A DNA stretch of 64,000 bases from Archaeoglobaceae archaeon (GTDB lineage: Archaea > Halobacteriota > Archaeoglobi > Archaeoglobales > Archaeoglobaceae). The stretch is taken from NCBI GenBank assembly GCA_026988525.1, contig JALSLC010000003.1, positions 1 through 64,000 of the forward strand, in the 5' to 3' direction. Positions within the stretch are counted from its first letter, which is position 1. Every line of letters starts with the position of its first letter. Shown piece after piece: positions 3,749 to 9,311 of this stretch. The position numbers and the translations under genes were made by a program. The notes beneath the pieces are model-generated. The model saw nothing but the letters and a program-made list of their open reading frames with translations, searched no databases and was not told where the DNA came from.

Positions 3749-4707
3749 TTTTTGTACCTCATTTTAGCCAACATTGCACATGCGTATGATGGAAAAACAT
3801 ATGAAAACTCACCAATCTCATCTCTTAACATTTTACACTTAATTCCTAAATCTTTTGTAATCTCTTTTAATACGAAATCCCCCAATCCACAAACGATTAC
3901 TTTGTCTAAATTCCACTTTTTAATTTGCCATTCTACTGCATTTTTAATCAACTTTAAAAATTCTTCTTTGACTTCAAAAGCTATTTCCTCACAGTTTATC
4001 TCATTTTTATCACAGCAGAATTGTCTTGCAATTCTTTGGCAGCATTCATCGTAAGTTTTTCCCCTTCCATCTGGTGTTTCACAGCTATACTTTTCTTTAT
4101 CAATATCTCCTGTAATTATGAAAACATCTCCTACCGTAGAGTAAAACTCTGGAACTGTAGGGGCATGAACTTTTTTTGAATATCTAAGTACGTAAAAAAT
4201 TGGAGTTCTAAGAACTCCTAAATAGAGTAGCTCCCCTCTCCTCAATCTTTCAAAATCTGATTTTCCTGAAAGAATTTTATCTTTAACTGGTATTATATCA
4301 GTAGTTGTTGATCCAATATCTACAAATAAAAAATCTCTTTCACCTTTTTCCATTAAGTATTTGATTGAAGCTACCCAATTGGATGCAGCGAATTCCTGAG
4401 GAGGATTCATAGCTTCTTTTATTTCACCATTACAATTTAAAAATAGATGTACTGCTTTTGGAAATGCTTTTTTTACAGCATTTTCAACGAATTTAATTCC
4501 CTCTTCTTTTGTTTTAAATGTATCACATATTTCTGCAGTAGTAACTGTGCAAACAGATTTAAATTCTCCAAAGCTTTTGAGCAGCTCAACGAATTTTTTG
4601 CAATTATCTTTCTTCCAAAGAGGATAGTAAACAAGCTTAAAGTCAGTTTTCTCATCTAATATAACACACTTTGTATTAGCTCCACCAATATCTAATCCAG
4701 CGATCAT
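3739..4707 (-). CDS. mfnF: MfnF-like methanofuran condensing enzyme (hydantoinase/oxoprolinase-like)
   Basis: A 322-residue ASKHA-fold protein. GLDIGGANTKCVILD at the N-terminus and FVDIGSTTTDIIP at about 128-140 are the two phosphate motifs of the hydantoinase/oxoprolinase-like family. In H4MPT organisms this family includes MfnF, which joins the aminomethylfuran phosphate to the tyramine-glutamate part of methanofuran. The neighbouring mfnE makes the activated furan, so both late steps are encoded together. The start overlaps the stop of the upstream MBL gene. The specific function is inferred. Confidence 0.82.
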   Translation of the reverse strand: MIAGLDIGGANTKCVILDEKTDFKLVYYPLWKKDNCKKFVELLKSFGEFKSVCTVTTAEICDTFKTKEEGIKFVENAVKKAFPKAVHLFLNCNGEIKEAMNPPQEFAASNWVASIKYLMEKGERDFLFVDIGSTTTDIIPVKDKILSGKSDFERLRRGELLYLGVLRTPIFYVLRYSKKVHAPTVPEFYSTVGDVFIITGDIDKEKYSCETPDGRGKTYDECCQRIARQFCCDKNEINCEEIAFEVKEEFLKLIKNAVEWQIKKWNLDKVIVCGLGDFVLKEITKDLGIKCKMLRDEIGEFSYVFPSYACAMLAKMRYKKWR

Positions 4708-5480
4708 TAAATAAATGAACTCAAATCTTGTTTTTCTTTTTTACCATTAAACTCAAATGTTTGGAAGTCATAGCCAGCGGGATACTTCTTTATAACTACG
4801 TTGTGCGGTGGGAAAAAGTGACTCATGTGTGTTAAAACAACTTTTTTTGCTTTTAGCTTTTTTGATAAGAGCATAGCTTCTTCAGCATTCATGTGTTTTC
4901 TAAAGTGAAATTTTGGAGCTAAGGCTTCAACTATGAACAGGTCTGGATTTTTCATTTCTTCTATACTTTTGTTTGGTATATCTATGTTTGTATCTCCACT
5001 TATGCTTATTTTGTATCCATCTTTTTCTATAACTACACCATGAGCCCTTCGTAGAGGAGGGTGATTTACATCTACGATTGTAACTTTTAATCCTATAACT
5101 TTAAAAGGTTCGTAGCTCTCTACTTCAATTGGTTTATACTTCATAAAGTCCATGTACTTTCCAATATCCTCATGTACTTCAGGTGAGGTATATACAACAA
5201 CATCATCTTGAACTCTGTAGAAATCTCCGAATCCAGCAAAATGATCGTAGTGACAGTGAGTCCATATAACTGCATCAACTCTTTCTACATTCATTTTGAG
5301 TAGTTGATATCTCATATCGGGGGAAGTGTCAATTATCATCGTTTTTTCTTCATTTTTAATAAGGATGGAGAACCTTCTCCTCTCCCACCCATACTTTCTT
5401 GCATTCTCGCAAGTTCTGCAGTGACAGCCTATAACAGGTGTACCCGGAGAATCACCAGTTCCAAGTAGTACTACTTTCAT
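4707..5480 (-). CDS. MBL-fold metallohydrolase (PhnP-like)
   Basis: A 257-residue metallo-beta-lactamase fold hydrolase. The HxHxDH metal motif is present as THCHYDH (about residues 75-81), with further metal ligands in SGDTN, KHMNAEEA and a C-terminal THMSH. The N-terminal LGTGDSPGTPVIGCHCRTC is characteristic of PhnP-like phosphodiesterases, where the cysteines bind an extra zinc. The substrate is unknown; cyclic phosphates or nucleotides are possible. It is coupled to mfnF and starts four bases after the ATPase gene stops, so it lies inside the same operon. Confidence 0.87.
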   Translation of the reverse strand: MKVVLLGTGDSPGTPVIGCHCRTCENARKYGWERRRFSILIKNEEKTMIIDTSPDMRYQLLKMNVERVDAVIWTHCHYDHFAGFGDFYRVQDDVVVYTSPEVHEDIGKYMDFMKYKPIEVESYEPFKVIGLKVTIVDVNHPPLRRAHGVVIEKDGYKISISGDTNIDIPNKSIEEMKNPDLFIVEALAPKFHFRKHMNAEEAMLLSKKLKAKKVVLTHMSHFFPPHNVVIKKYPAGYDFQTFEFNGKKEKQDLSSFI

Positions 5481-5484
5481 AGCC

Positions 5485-6723
5485 TTAGTAGGATGTTTTT
5501 AGACACAACCTATTTCTAACATCTTCCACAGCTTGAAGTAGGTCGTCCATAGTTATTTTTTTCTCTCCTCTTAAGAGTGCTTTTAACACAGCCTCTCTGA
5601 CTACAAGCTTTAAATCTGATCCTGTAAATCCTTCTGTTAGTTTTACTATTTCGTCTATATTATAGTCTCCATCAACTTTTTTTAAGGCTAACTCAAGAAT
5701 TCTTTTTCTTATTTTTTCTTGTGGTTCTGGAAATTCGACTATCTTATCGAATCTTCTCCACACTGCAGGATCTAATAAACTTGGATGATTTGTTGCTGCA
5801 ATGAGTATTACACCATCTTCTACAAGATTTATTTCGTCAATAGATTTCAGTAGTGTGTTAACAGCTCTTTTAACAGCTGCATGTTCATCGCTTGTTCTTG
5901 TTTTTGCCACATAATCAAACTCGTCTATGAAGAGAATGCATGGATTTAGCCTTTTTGCTATTTCAAATACTTTCTCTATGTTTTTCGATGTTTCACCCAA
6001 GTACTGAGATGTGATCATAGATAGCTTTACTTCTACGAGGGGTATTTTCAATTTCTTGCTTAAAGCTCTTGCAGTAGTGGTTTTACCTGTACCGGGGGGA
6101 CCTATGAACAAAAGCTTACCTATTTCAATAACTCCAATTTTTTTCAGATACTCTCTTTCTTCCATTGCAACCTCTATCTTCCTTATTTCTTCTAATTGTT
6201 CTTCATCAAGAGCAACATCTTTAAAGTTAACTTTTATATCCTCTGGAGAGTATATTCTTACTAATCCTAACATTTCCGCTGTTTCCTTGTTCTTCTCTAA
6301 TTCAGCAATAACTGTTTTGAGCCATTCTTTATCACTATGTTTTGGTAAATTCCTTTTTTTTGCTTCTTCATAAGATACATCAAAACCATCGTTCTGGTAG
6401 TAGTATGCAAGAACAGGATTGTTTTTAATCCTCTCTAACCCTTTTGAAGCAAACCATTTTGCTGCAGCTGGTAAAGAAGTTAGTAATACTTGTTTTGTTA
6501 GGTTGTTTAAATCTACAAAAGGCAACTTCAAAGTTTCTTCAACGTGCTTTGCACTACCTATGCTTTTTAGCATATCCAACTTTACTACAAGAGGTCTGCT
6601 AATTCCGTTTTTACTGTAAAACATTTTTCTTATTTCTTTTGGAATATCGTCTTCTGTGAGTTCTTCAAACCTATTGTACACTTCTGCAGTAAGAATGACT
6701 TCTACAAGCTTCACCGTACTCAT
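5485..6723 (-). CDS. AAA+ ATPase, single domain
   Basis: A protein of about 412 residues with one AAA module: Walker A GPPGTGKTT (about residue 210), Walker B ILFIDEFD, sensor-1 LIAATNHP, arginine-finger region DPAVWRRFDK, and a C-terminal helical lid. The first 190 residues form a family-specific N-domain without membrane segments or PAN-type coiled coil. The open frame starts at a GTG (6732); the ATG at 6723 is preferred because AGGTG lies seven bases before it. It heads the operon that ends in aEF-1beta. A Cdc48/proteasome-type unfoldase role is possible, but the client is unknown. Confidence 0.88.
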   Translation of the reverse strand: MSTVKLVEVILTAEVYNRFEELTEDDIPKEIRKMFYSKNGISRPLVVKLDMLKSIGSAKHVEETLKLPFVDLNNLTKQVLLTSLPAAAKWFASKGLERIKNNPVLAYYYQNDGFDVSYEEAKKRNLPKHSDKEWLKTVIAELEKNKETAEMLGLVRIYSPEDIKVNFKDVALDEEQLEEIRKIEVAMEEREYLKKIGVIEIGKLLFIGPPGTGKTTTARALSKKLKIPLVEVKLSMITSQYLGETSKNIEKVFEIAKRLNPCILFIDEFDYVAKTRTSDEHAAVKRAVNTLLKSIDEINLVEDGVILIAATNHPSLLDPAVWRRFDKIVEFPEPQEKIRKRILELALKKVDGDYNIDEIVKLTEGFTGSDLKLVVREAVLKALLRGEKKITMDDLLQAVEDVRNRLCLKTSY

Positions 6724-6895
6724 GGCATACACCTGATTTTTTGACCCAAGACAATCAGACTAGCACTTTTTAAATTTTTTGAATTAGCTCAAATGGTTAG
6801 CATATACTTTGTTAGTATAAATTTTCAAATTTGTTATATTTAAAAGCGGATTAAACTGGCAGTTGAATAAAATTTATTAAAAATAAAGATTAGAT

Positions 6896-7042
6896 TTAAC
6901 TCGAAACTTCTTCTTTTGTTCTGAATGCCTTAAAGAAGCACAAAGCAGACCCTATTCCAAGAACAACAGCCCCTACGAGGTAACTTATTATAGGTGCCAT
7001 AGTTGATGCCGCTTTAACTGTAACATATACGGGAGTGCACAT
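6896..7042 (-). CDS. MCxP mini-membrane protein A
   Basis: A 48-residue protein read right to left from ATG 7042 to TAA 6896, with a strong GGAGGTGAT site six bases upstream. It starts MCTP, has one hydrophobic helix (about residues 14-36) ending in SALCFFK, and closes with a charged tail (RTKEE). Its divergent neighbour at 7162-7329 has the same plan: MCAP at the N-terminus and LLCFK at the end of the helix. I do not recognise the family. The shared N-terminal Met-Cys-x-Pro and the Cys at the membrane boundary look selected. Methionine removal would leave a free N-terminal Cys. The reality of the gene rests on the ribosome site and the paralogue. Confidence 0.72.
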   Translation of the reverse strand: MCTPVYVTVKAASTMAPIISYLVGAVVLGIGSALCFFKAFRTKEEVSS

Positions 7043-7087
7043 ATTTTTATCACCTCCATATACTTTTTTGGGGAATATTTAATAAAG

Positions 7088-7107
7088 TTTACGCACAATA
7101 GTGTAAA
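7088..7107. promoter_or_regulatory. Imperfect inverted repeat between the divergent MCxP genes
   Basis: TTTACGCAC and GTGTAAA face each other around a short AT spacer, midway between the two divergent mini-protein genes. The forward TATA box (7118-7126) and a leftward TATA-like tattaaata (about 7073-7085) flank it. It could be an operator shared by both genes. The repeat is imperfect, so this is tentative. Confidence 0.35.
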
Positions 7108-7117
7108 TTAGGCAAAA

Positions 7118-7126
7118 TTATAAATA
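7118..7126 (+). promoter_or_regulatory. TATA box for MCxP mini-protein B
   Basis: TTATAAATA lies 36 bases before the ATG at 7162 and about 24-32 before the GGAGGGA ribosome site at 7150-7156, so the transcript would carry a short leader. The sequence is a good match to the archaeal TATA consensus. Confidence 0.6.
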
Positions 7127-7161
7127 CTCTTCCAAATCAAATTATACTTGGAGGGATTGGA

Positions 7162-7329
7162 ATGTGTGCACCAGCATCTGTAACGGCATTACATAGTGTA
7201 GTGTCTATTAGTGCCTATCAAGCATACATGCTTAGCCACGTAATGGGTGTATTTGGGTTAGTTGGAGCAAGTTTACTCTGCTTTAAGTCAAGTATAGTTG
7301 GTAGGTTATCTAGGATATTTGGTAAATGA
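7162..7329 (+). CDS. MCxP mini-membrane protein B
   Basis: A 55-residue protein with GGAGGGA five bases before the ATG and a TATA box upstream. It begins MCAP, has a first amphipathic stretch, a hydrophobic helix (about residues 27-43) ending LLCFK, and a basic C-terminus (GRLSRIFGK). It mirrors the divergent 48-residue protein at 6896-7042 in its N-terminal MCxP and its helix-end Cys-Phe. The radical SAM gene follows after 38 bases. I do not recognise the family. It could be a small membrane subunit, or a substrate for the neighbouring enzyme. Confidence 0.74.
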   Translation: MCAPASVTALHSVVSISAYQAYMLSHVMGVFGLVGASLLCFKSSIVGRLSRIFGK

Positions 7330-7367
7330 TATTTTTTATATATTATTTTGTTTTTGAGGGATAGCTG

Positions 7368-8192
7368 TTGCTATCAAGAATAATTAGACCTGAAATACTG
7401 CAGGTGGAGTCCACTAACGACTGTTTTATGAACTGTAAACCTTGCATGAGAAAGTATTTGGAAAGGCCAGTAGGATACATAGATTTTGAAGACTTCAAAA
7501 AGTTGCCCCTCAGCAGTTTTAAAGAAGTGTGTCTTCATGGATGGGGTGAACCACTCCTCCACCCCAAGATTTTCGATCTTGTGAGGTATGTTAAATCCCT
7601 TGGAATCAAAGCAAGTATGGGGACGAACGGATTTCTCGTGGACAAGTATATAGATGAGATATTCAACAGCGGTTTGGACGAGATTTCTTTCGGAATATAC
7701 ACTTTTAACGGAAGAGAAAAAGCGATTGACAATTTAGAACTACTGATTAAAGAAAAGAGGGAAAGAAATAGCAAAATAACGATTTTCGTTGATATAACTA
7801 TCTTCAAAGACAATTTGGAGGAGATTCCGAAGCTCGTTAAGAGTTTCGTTGATATGGGTGTAGATGGAATAGTTTTACATAGGCTCTTCAATGTTTACAA
7901 GGTCGATCCGAGTGTGGAGTATATATCAAATAAAGAGGAAAAAAACTTATTTAAAGAAGTAAAAAAAATAGGTGGGAAGAAAGTTTACCTTCCAACCAAG
8001 CATATAAAGCCTTGCAGAATAGCGTTTTATACCATGTTTGTTACTTGGGAATGTATGCAATGCTCATGCGTTTATTTAAGTGAAGAGTACCTTGGTGATG
8101 CGAGAACAGACTATGAAACTATGTTAAAAAGACATTTAAAGTTTGTTACGGGGATGAAAAAACATGAAGTATGTAGAAGATGTTTCTGGTAG
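7368..8192 (+). CDS. Radical SAM protein with SPASM-like C-terminal cysteines
   Basis: A 274-residue enzyme. The radical SAM motif CFMNCKPC (C-x3-C-x2-C, about residues 18-25) is followed by GWGEPLLHP, the SAM-binding GGE-like segment, and by TNGF. The C-terminal 70 residues add six cysteines (KPC, WECMQCSC, VCRRC), a pattern like SPASM/twitch domains that bind auxiliary Fe-S clusters, common in peptide-modifying enzymes. The start is a TTG at 7368 after GAGGG at seven bases; no ATG is better placed. The stop overlaps the next gene by 29 bases. Context suggests it acts on something made by this island, possibly the MCxP proteins. The substrate is unproven. Confidence 0.86.
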   Translation: MLSRIIRPEILQVESTNDCFMNCKPCMRKYLERPVGYIDFEDFKKLPLSSFKEVCLHGWGEPLLHPKIFDLVRYVKSLGIKASMGTNGFLVDKYIDEIFNSGLDEISFGIYTFNGREKAIDNLELLIKEKRERNSKITIFVDITIFKDNLEEIPKLVKSFVDMGVDGIVLHRLFNVYKVDPSVEYISNKEEKNLFKEVKKIGGKKVYLPTKHIKPCRIAFYTMFVTWECMQCSCVYLSEEYLGDARTDYETMLKRHLKFVTGMKKHEVCRRCFW

Positions 8193-8712
8193 TTTTGTTG
8201 ATGGCACAATTGAAAAATTATTGATTACTGTTATTTCAGCATATATAATATTCACTCTAATGAGTTATCTGAACTTAAAACCAATTCTTGAAGCAATAAT
8301 CCCTCTTAAAGCCCCGTTTAAAAACATCTCAGTTTTAGGTGGATTTTTAATAGTTTTCTGGGTATCCTTAGCATACAGATCTTGTGGAAGGGGTTATGGT
8401 ATAGCAACTGCCTTGCTTGCAATATCTTTCTGTTTGTTTGTTAGCCCATGGTACGATGTTATAAAGCCCTACTGGTTTAGCTTAGTTGGATTCATATCTT
8501 TCTTGGCTCTTGGAATTTTAACAGAATACGTGAATGGAGGAGTTGCAAACTTAGTTTGCATATTGATAAACTGGTTTTTTGCAGTTTTTGCCGGTATAGT
8601 TGAGTTTCATCCAATAGCGTTTGCTATACTTGGAGTAGTCGCATTTATTTCAGGTTATGTTGGTGATTATGTGGCTGGAAAAGCAATCAATTTAATTAAA
8701 AATGTTTTATAG
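8164..8712 (+). CDS. Polytopic membrane protein, unknown
   Basis: A 182-residue protein with about six hydrophobic segments spread over its whole length and no recognised motif. The ATG at 8164 lies inside the end of the radical SAM gene, a 29-base overlap that implies co-translation. Charged loops are short, so it looks like a channel, anchor or export component rather than an enzyme. I do not recognise the family. Confidence 0.7.
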   Translation: MKYVEDVSGSFVDGTIEKLLITVISAYIIFTLMSYLNLKPILEAIIPLKAPFKNISVLGGFLIVFWVSLAYRSCGRGYGIATALLAISFCLFVSPWYDVIKPYWFSLVGFISFLALGILTEYVNGGVANLVCILINWFFAVFAGIVEFHPIAFAILGVVAFISGYVGDYVAGKAINLIKNVL

Positions 8713-8720
8713 GATATAAT

Positions 8721-9311
8721 ATGAGAGACAAACTAAAAAAGTATCTTGAAAATAAGGAGTATTGGAAAATAAGAAAGCCTTCACTTGCGATGCTATTTCT
8801 CTACGATTCAGATGAATTTTATAGATTTAGGGGTGCTGAGGCCTTAGGTTACCTTTGTAAAGGTAAGACTGCAAGAAACTTTATTTTAAGGCTTTTCTGG
8901 CATTTAAGTGATGAGAGTGGTGCGTATTGTATTGGAGCTCCTCTTGGAATAGCTGAAATTGGAAGGACAAATCCAGATGTTTTTGAAGGATTTAAAAACA
9001 AATTTGTATCTTTAATTGATGATTGGGAAGTTGAAAGAAAGTATGTAGTTTATGGCATGGGTAGAGTTTCACACTTAATAGGAGATACCTATCCAGATTC
9101 AAGAAAAAAGATTGAAGAAGTTTTACTAAACGAATCTGATTGTGAGGTTATTGCCTATTCGATTTTAACAGCTAAGAAACTCAACTGTTGTGTAAATTCA
9201 TGTATTGAAGCAGCTAAAAAGTTAGAGGGTGTAAAAGTTAAGATATACAATGGAGAAAAGTTTATAGAAGTAATATTTCCCGAAATTTTAAACATTAGCT
9301 ATGTTTTTTAA
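8721..9311 (+). CDS. HEAT-repeat-like protein (DVU0298-like)
   Basis: A 196-residue soluble helical-repeat protein. The segment with LSDESGAYCIGAPLGIAEIG followed by VVYGMGRVSHL resembles a family I remember as DVU0298-like, found in sulfate-reducing bacteria and Archaeoglobi, with degenerate HEAT repeats. It starts nine bases after the membrane protein and ends the rightward island operon. Such repeats usually bind other proteins, so an accessory or assembly role is likely but unproven. The family name is from memory. Confidence 0.65.
   Translation: MRDKLKKYLENKEYWKIRKPSLAMLFLYDSDEFYRFRGAEALGYLCKGKTARNFILRLFWHLSDESGAYCIGAPLGIAEIGRTNPDVFEGFKNKFVSLIDDWEVERKYVVYGMGRVSHLIGDTYPDSRKKIEEVLLNESDCEVIAYSILTAKKLNCCVNSCIEAAKKLEGVKVKIYNGEKFIEVIFPEILNISYVF

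Follow-up and report, generated by a model that had tools for sequence, protein, structure and literature searches.

A conserved micropeptide and radical SAM enzyme module of archaea and bacteria, with a possible part in metal or metal-cofactor capture

What do two very short, divergent genes do beside the gene of a radical S-adenosylmethionine (SAM) enzyme in an archaeal genome? The question is raised by the first 64,000 nucleotides of contig 3 of an Archaeoglobaceae genome (G000; 1.43 Mb, 39 contigs), the whole stretch being referred to here as the window. A preliminary description had drawn attention to two short open reading frames (ORFs) with an N-terminal MCxP and a single hydrophobic helix, and had offered them as substrates or membrane subunits of a unit that included the enzyme. 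Inspection of the ORFs and their sites bore out the divergent arrangement, the strong ribosome sites of both (GGAGGTGATAAAAATATG and GGAGGGATTGGAATG), the MCxP start and the one helix; the overlap of 29 bases between the membrane protein gene and the radical SAM gene was also as described. Comparison with other genomes revealed that the two micropeptide genes, the radical SAM gene and the membrane protein gene are a conserved module, the core of which is held in the window as follows.

6896 to 7042, minus strand: micropeptide A, 48 amino acids, starting MCTPVYVT, one helix (ORF and ribosome site, profile match, purifying selection, homologues beside the enzyme in relatives); full sequence MCTPVYVTVKAASTMAPIISYLVGAVVLGIGSALCFFKAFRTKEEVSS.
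7043 to 7161, no strand: divergent promoter region separating the micropeptide genes (intergenic alignment with relatives).
7162 to 7329, plus strand: micropeptide B, 55 amino acids, starting MCAPASVT, one helix (ORF and ribosome site, profile match, purifying selection, motif shared across phyla); full sequence MCAPASVTALHSVVSISAYQAYMLSHVMGVFGLVGASLLCFKSSIVGRLSRIFGK.
7368 to 8192, plus strand: radical SAM enzyme, 274 amino acids, TTG start, CxxxCxxC (Pfam, family alignment, structure model).
8164 to 8712, plus strand: polytopic membrane protein, 182 amino acids, with a predicted fold like that of the S component of an energy-coupling factor (ECF) transporter; present in most loci.

Linkage of micropeptide and enzyme was evaluated by searching an alignment of the micropeptides (A1) and a profile of the enzyme (A2) separately over 394 genomes of the phylum. 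Convincing micropeptide matches were found in 34 genomes and strong enzyme matches in 32, each of which (32/32) also carries a micropeptide; conversely, the enzyme was found in 32 of the 34 genomes bearing a micropeptide. The two exceptions are a genome in which the micropeptide gene sits at a contig end, and one (G162) in which micropeptide and membrane protein genes occupy a 4-kb contig. Fisher's test of co-occurrence gives p = 5e-45, a value that is overstated, the genomes being related. In its own genome the profile matched micropeptide A at 3.6e-17 and micropeptide B at 4.6e-22. Weak matches in four further genomes (E > 0.001) were partial within longer frames or contained stops, and were dropped as chance.

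When 84,980 genomes were scanned independently, the enzyme being the only query, 70 loci were returned. In 61 of 69 of these an MCxP ORF of 38-80 codons lies less than 700 bp upstream in the same orientation, where 0.018 per locus would be expected, and in six others the motif occurs somewhere in the locus (elsewhere, as a variant, or fused to a tetratricopeptide repeat (TPR) protein), for a total of 67/69. The supposition that MCxP micropeptides adjoin homologues of the enzyme in other genomes thus holds across archaea and bacteria. Micropeptides lie at a greater distance from the enzyme in L117 and L126, variants starting MCTAI and MCTTI occur in L159 and L161, the motif is fused to a TPR protein in L144 and L165, and no micropeptide was found on the 6-kb contig of L119. 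One locus, L168, was ruled out as a member of the family. The hosts include Archaeoglobaceae, ANME-1/Methanophagales, Thermoproteota, Altiarchaeota, Hecatellales/Bathyarchaeota, Hadesarchaea and Methanoculleus among the archaea, and Dehalococcoidia, Deltaproteobacteria/Desulfobacteraceae (Desulfobacterota), Clostridia and Latescibacterota among the bacteria. Close homologues of the enzyme occur in Archaeoglobaceae and ANME-1/Methanophagales, with MCxP micropeptides in their neighbourhoods, usually two in Archaeoglobaceae. At a greater distance, the radical SAM homologues of L172 and L175 are accompanied by diverged MCxP micropeptides; those of L171, L173 and L174, with no micropeptide nearby, were set outside the family. 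The Methanomicrobial loci L167 and L172 (both Methanoculleus) and L175 have diverged micropeptides (beginning MCIPVILPEAAIGL and MCVPIILSDAAMGL) directly 5' of the enzyme gene, and FmdE, DUF364 and methyltransferase genes lie in the vicinity of the Methanoculleus loci.

In the enzyme tree, branches of several phyla alternate; transfer could produce this pattern, which is nonetheless no proof of it. Searches for a plasmid origin gave distant radical SAM matches only and those for a viral origin one weak match (34% over 122 residues), and neither origin was retained. Two contigs labelled Micrarchaeota (L108) and Baldrarchaeota (L109) carry an identical micropeptide and a closely similar gene order, which suggests that they are mis-binned.

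Over all loci 101 distinct micropeptides were gathered, by criteria that included Cys2 and a loose residue class at position 4; Pro4 is present in 99 and Val7 in 87 of them. What is conserved throughout is an N-terminal M-C-x-P-[VI]-[STA]-V and a basic C-terminus, and the most conserved part is this short N-terminal motif, not the helix. All 101 have one helix and a C-terminal flank of net positive charge, the N-terminal flank being near neutral; because of the basic C-terminal flank, the positive-inside rule predicts that the N-terminus with its cysteine faces outward and the basic tail lies inside. Ratios of nonsynonymous to synonymous substitution among near relatives, taken from unsaturated synonymous sites only and leaving out pairs with micropeptide A of L025, are about 0.04-0.18, and the micropeptides are under strong purifying selection. 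A division into leader and core was not found, the motif occupying residues 2-8 with nothing before it as a leader. In bacterial micropeptides the N-terminal segment is followed by an extra GC-x-G-x-C motif. The Cys-Phe-(x)-Lys at the helix end, which had been listed as a shared feature, is confined to close Archaeoglobaceae relatives and was discarded as such. No Pfam or NCBIfam family covers the micropeptides, and NCBIfam matches of two of them (mraY, CidB/LrgB) were taken as chance hydrophobic similarity. In some loci (L073, L074, L092, L093) micropeptides adjoin the membrane protein with no enzyme nearby. A third micropeptide class, starting MCAPISVAVGG, about 52-56 amino acids long and acidic-rich at the helix start, occurs in ANME-1 relatives (L071:1476-1646, L077:8961-9131, L097:4952-5122, and L091/L115) beside exported FmdE and beta-propeller genes.

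The window enzyme matches the radical SAM family PF04055 at 4.4e-13, and the cluster cysteines C19, C23 and C26 (CxxxCxxC) are invariant in the family alignment (A5). Six extra C-terminal cysteines had been noted and are indeed present (216, 229, 232, 234, 269, 272), of which only C216, C234, C269 and C272 are invariant across the family; these four suggest a single auxiliary cluster of a twitch-like kind. SPASM enzymes, with two auxiliary clusters, have seven conserved C-terminal cysteines where the present family has four invariant ones. In an AlphaFold2 model (predicted local distance difference test, pLDDT, 94.7) the nearest PDB folds are BlsE, SkfB, CteB, PqqE and SuiB, with template modelling (TM) scores up to 0.76. 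PF13186 matches a relative (L027, 7.7e-10), not the window enzyme. There is no RRE domain on the enzyme, the radical SAM core of which begins at the very start, nor among the neighbours examined. Of the curated families, TIGR04317 (W_rSAM_matur) is the one that all 55 enzymes match best; the window enzyme reaches 101.7 bits, the cut-off being 380. All 55 also weakly match NirJ2, AhbD or metalloenzyme-maturase models. Assignment as a tungsten maturase, NirJ, AhbD or viperin was rejected on account of the scores.

Gene orders were compared over 77 loci, some of which are overlapping records of one region. Micropeptide and enzyme form the most constant pair, with FmdE, TPR and membrane proteins variably present; FmdE-micropeptide-radical SAM-membrane protein and TPR-micropeptide-radical SAM are among the recurrent orders. 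In ANME-1, micropeptide-TPR repeats stand ahead of a single enzyme gene (L076, L077) or at a contig end (L071). The FmdE partner is exported, the archaeal ones often having a C-terminal membrane anchor, and its metal site H-x-H-x-C-P-G...C is intact in 30 of 30, that of the own genome included. In solved FmdE proteins the H-x-H-x-C...C residues are Zn/Ni ligands, and it was noted in 2010 that FmdE genes mostly adjoin metal transporters (PMC2954224). Most TPR partners are anchored in the membrane at the N-terminus. In Clostridia (L165), the TPR protein beside the enzyme itself starts MCVPISVTTQ, joining motif and TPR with the micropeptide's helix absent, and this fusion of the motif alone points to the motif as the functional unit. 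A second motif-fused TPR gene (L144:3777-4961) is split in two by an in-frame stop, beyond which it resumes, perhaps because the gene is broken or because the sequence contains an error.

The own genome encodes both partners on other contigs than the module: a TPR homologue at G000:C33:52513-54072, with 95% identity to a module-adjacent one in G012, and an exported FmdE protein at about G000:C31:12036-13235. The FmdE gene is preceded by two cytochrome bd subunit I-like genes (L180:4284-8236, contig 31) and is followed, a few kb on, by siroheme decarboxylase-like and CysG-like genes. Two genes away from the TPR gene (L179:6511-11032, contig 33) is that of a small exported protein, which bears several CxxCH haem motifs.

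The membrane protein is conserved in most loci. It has no Pfam or NCBIfam family and no match in a PDB sequence search. Its model (pLDDT 89.4) has as best PDB match 5EDL (TM 0.56/0.52, probability 0.97, E 0.39), which is YkoE, the S component of an ECF transporter (PMC5037267), and RibU and PanT stand further down the same list; the protein is thus likely to be S-component-like, as judged from the model. CbiQ and ATPase genes adjoin the module in L030, L034 and L099 only, and most loci have no EcfT/EcfA beside the membrane gene. In Methanoculleus two weakly similar membrane proteins stand in tandem beside the enzyme.

Neighbouring genes repeatedly concern metals. CbiM/CbiQ lie beside the module in L030 and L034, with cluster members in L099; ZnuA and ABC-3 in L165, the cluster being also in L144; and FecCD in L079, the cluster being also in L089. 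TonB receptors, Fur, SBP_bac_5, DUF4198, HypA and Metal_resist occur as well, together with the DUF364 'heavy-metal chelation' neighbour in Methanoculleus. By our own count, made without a background rate, a metal-related gene is present in about 24 of 77 loci. Other neighbours include a 4Fe-4S membrane protein that accompanies desulfobacterial loci and, in L031, tetrapyrrole genes (siroheme decarboxylase-like, CysG-like).

The reading preferred here, with a probability of roughly 0.5, is that an enzyme-modified micropeptide end, together with exported partners, captures a metal or metal cofactor. The micropeptide would be made leaderless and inserted so that the Cys-x-Pro-[VI]-S-V-T segment faces out and the basic tail stays within the cell; before or during insertion this segment would be altered by the radical SAM enzyme, most likely at or near Cys2. 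The modified cysteine segment, exposed as an outward-facing ligand or docking element, would work with exported FmdE-domain and TPR proteins and with the ECF-S-like membrane protein in capturing and passing on the cargo, a metal ion or metal-containing cofactor, possibly of nickel or cobalt, which ordinary importers would then take up. This reading draws on the strict linkage of micropeptide and enzyme across two domains, on the purifying selection and shared N-terminal start of the micropeptides, on the nearness of the enzyme's fold to BlsE and to peptide-modifying enzymes, on the intact FmdE metal site, on the metal genes around the module, on the resemblance of the membrane protein to YkoE, and on the TPR and exported FmdE homologues of the own genome. 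Between the two roles first offered, both of which still stand, that of substrate is favoured and is probably correct, because conservation is concentrated in the N-terminal motif and this motif recurs, joined to a TPR protein, beside the enzyme. A metal or metal cofactor as the cargo stands at about even odds, since the neighbours, though varied, keep returning to metals, and the docking mechanism is less likely than not. A fully specified version, in which a nutrient-metal capture machine of archaea and bacteria has its enzyme turn the Cys-x-Pro of a leaderless micropeptide into an outward metal or cofactor ligand that works with exported FmdE or TPR proteins and docks in an ECF-S-like carrier without a ligand of its own, is somewhat doubtful.

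Several observations weigh against metal capture by a modified micropeptide end. The membrane protein is absent from several bacterial loci, and its match to YkoE is weak by E-value (0.39). The metal neighbours, given as a raw count, differ in kind between loci, and other neighbours point to tetrapyrroles or electron transfer. The Clostridial TPR fusion has no export signal, and its motif may act inside the cell. Modification of the peptide is itself argued from gene linkage and motif conservation.

Three other explanations must be weighed against these findings. The micropeptides could be unmodified small subunits of a membrane complex, with the enzyme acting on the exported FmdE or TPR protein, or on a tetrapyrrole or metal cofactor. 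One-helix small subunits are common in membrane complexes, and this explanation would suit the loci L073, L074, L092 and L093, in which micropeptides accompany the membrane protein and no enzyme is nearby; the tetrapyrrole genes (siroheme decarboxylase-like, CysG-like) beside some loci, L031 among them, and the weak matches of all 55 enzymes to NirJ2, AhbD or metalloenzyme-maturase models would likewise fit. However, conservation peaks in the N-terminal motif and not in the helix, that motif moves to a TPR protein without its helix, and the micropeptide is most constantly paired with the enzyme while FmdE, TPR and membrane proteins vary; this explanation is considered unlikely, though deserving of attention. 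In the second, the micropeptides are precursors of a released ribosomal natural product (for example a two-peptide bacteriocin or a sactipeptide), which would target competitors or serve as a signal or metallophore. Linkage of a peptide to a radical SAM enzyme, the presence of two different peptides in many loci, the patchy distribution in the family and the extra cysteines of the bacterial micropeptides all suggest as much. Against this, neither a leader/core split nor an RRE on the enzyme is present, neither a protease nor a dedicated peptide exporter was found among the neighbours examined, the motif is near-constant across two domains, unlike diversifying product peptides, and the basic C-terminal anchor is retained in 101/101, so that a released product appears quite improbable.

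An alternative of a similarly low standing is that the module serves extracellular electron transfer or the assembly of a respiratory chain, the modified cysteine being a redox or haem ligand. The position of the own-genome FmdE gene after two cytochrome bd-like genes and of the TPR gene near a CxxCH protein is suggestive, as are the 4Fe-4S membrane protein of the desulfobacterial loci and the many hosts that are methane-oxidising archaea or sulfate reducers. Such neighbours, however, occur in a small number of loci; by contrast, hosts that are unrelated to one another repeatedly have metal importers and Fur regulators.

Among described systems, the SkfB, CteB, SuiB and PqqE peptide maturases are alike in enzyme fold, in auxiliary-cluster cysteines and in having a short peptide gene adjoining. 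The present module differs from them in having no RRE and no leader/core split, and in a peptide that is a one-helix membrane protein, conserved at its extreme N-terminus across archaea and bacteria. With clusters for ribosomally synthesized and post-translationally modified peptides (RiPPs) it shares the linkage of peptide and enzyme (61/69 upstream, 67 with the motif), but not the RRE or a leader and core with cleavage; because the leader and RRE features fail, the module is not filed as a RiPP, so far as its genes allow a judgment. The tungsten cofactor oxidoreductase maturase model TIGR04317 is the best family for the enzymes at a score far below cut-off, whereas the module is defined by its micropeptides. 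The ECF S components YkoE, RibU and PanT resemble the membrane protein in predicted fold, with no sequence family match and a weak E-value. CbiM and NikM bind metal with the extreme N-terminus, and the CbiMNQO/NikMNQO systems also have a small membrane partner and an S-like component, CbiM/CbiQ genes standing beside three loci of the module; the micropeptides, however, match no family and so are distinct from CbiN, and the module is built around a radical SAM enzyme. The exported FmdE of the module keeps the HxHxC...C site of its family (PF02663), whereas the solved FmdE proteins were described without micropeptide or radical SAM partners; that of the module is exported and often membrane-anchored.

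In open-access papers, no description was found of FmdE with radical SAM enzymes or of archaeal radical SAM micropeptides. The gene set appears new, no family model or paper describing it having been found, while the pairing of a radical SAM enzyme with a peptide encoded nearby is of a known kind; there is a real chance that the module is a new kind of system. Micropeptides and membrane protein have no Pfam or NCBIfam family, and the enzyme scores well under the curated cut-offs of those families that it does match, yet the set spans Archaeoglobi, ANME-1, Dehalococcoidia and Desulfobacteraceae. If the enzyme does modify a membrane-anchored N-terminus, this would be radical SAM peptide chemistry outside the RiPPs, yielding a permanent part of the cell surface and not a secreted product. 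If metal capture is correct, FmdE proteins, with their metal-transporter neighbours (PMC2954224), would be linked to a defined machine. A cultured host may be available in Methanoculleus, which carries a copy that has diverged.

Of the remaining features of the window, the 119-bp spacer between the divergent micropeptide ORFs is kept in close relatives. Alignment of the intergenic region (7043-7161) shows blocks around TTTAATAAA-x-TTTACGCA and GGCAAAATTATAAATAC to be kept in relatives, and these are possibly an operator between two TATA boxes. A HEAT-like ORF at 8721-9311 had been counted with the unit. The ORF is real and weakly DVU0298-like (57.5 bits, below the cut-off of 75), but comparison of neighbourhoods places it next to the module only in the window and in one same-genus relative, and it was left outside the module. 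On the other side, an AAA+ ATPase gene (5485-6732, minus strand) matches IetA, an ATPase with an anti-phage role, at 1.7e-67 in PADLOC and at 198.7 bits in NCBIfam, where the cut-off is 510. The expected partner of IetA is a subtilisin-like protein; the gene next to the ATPase on the same strand (4707-5480) is by eye not subtilisin-like but metallo-hydrolase-like.

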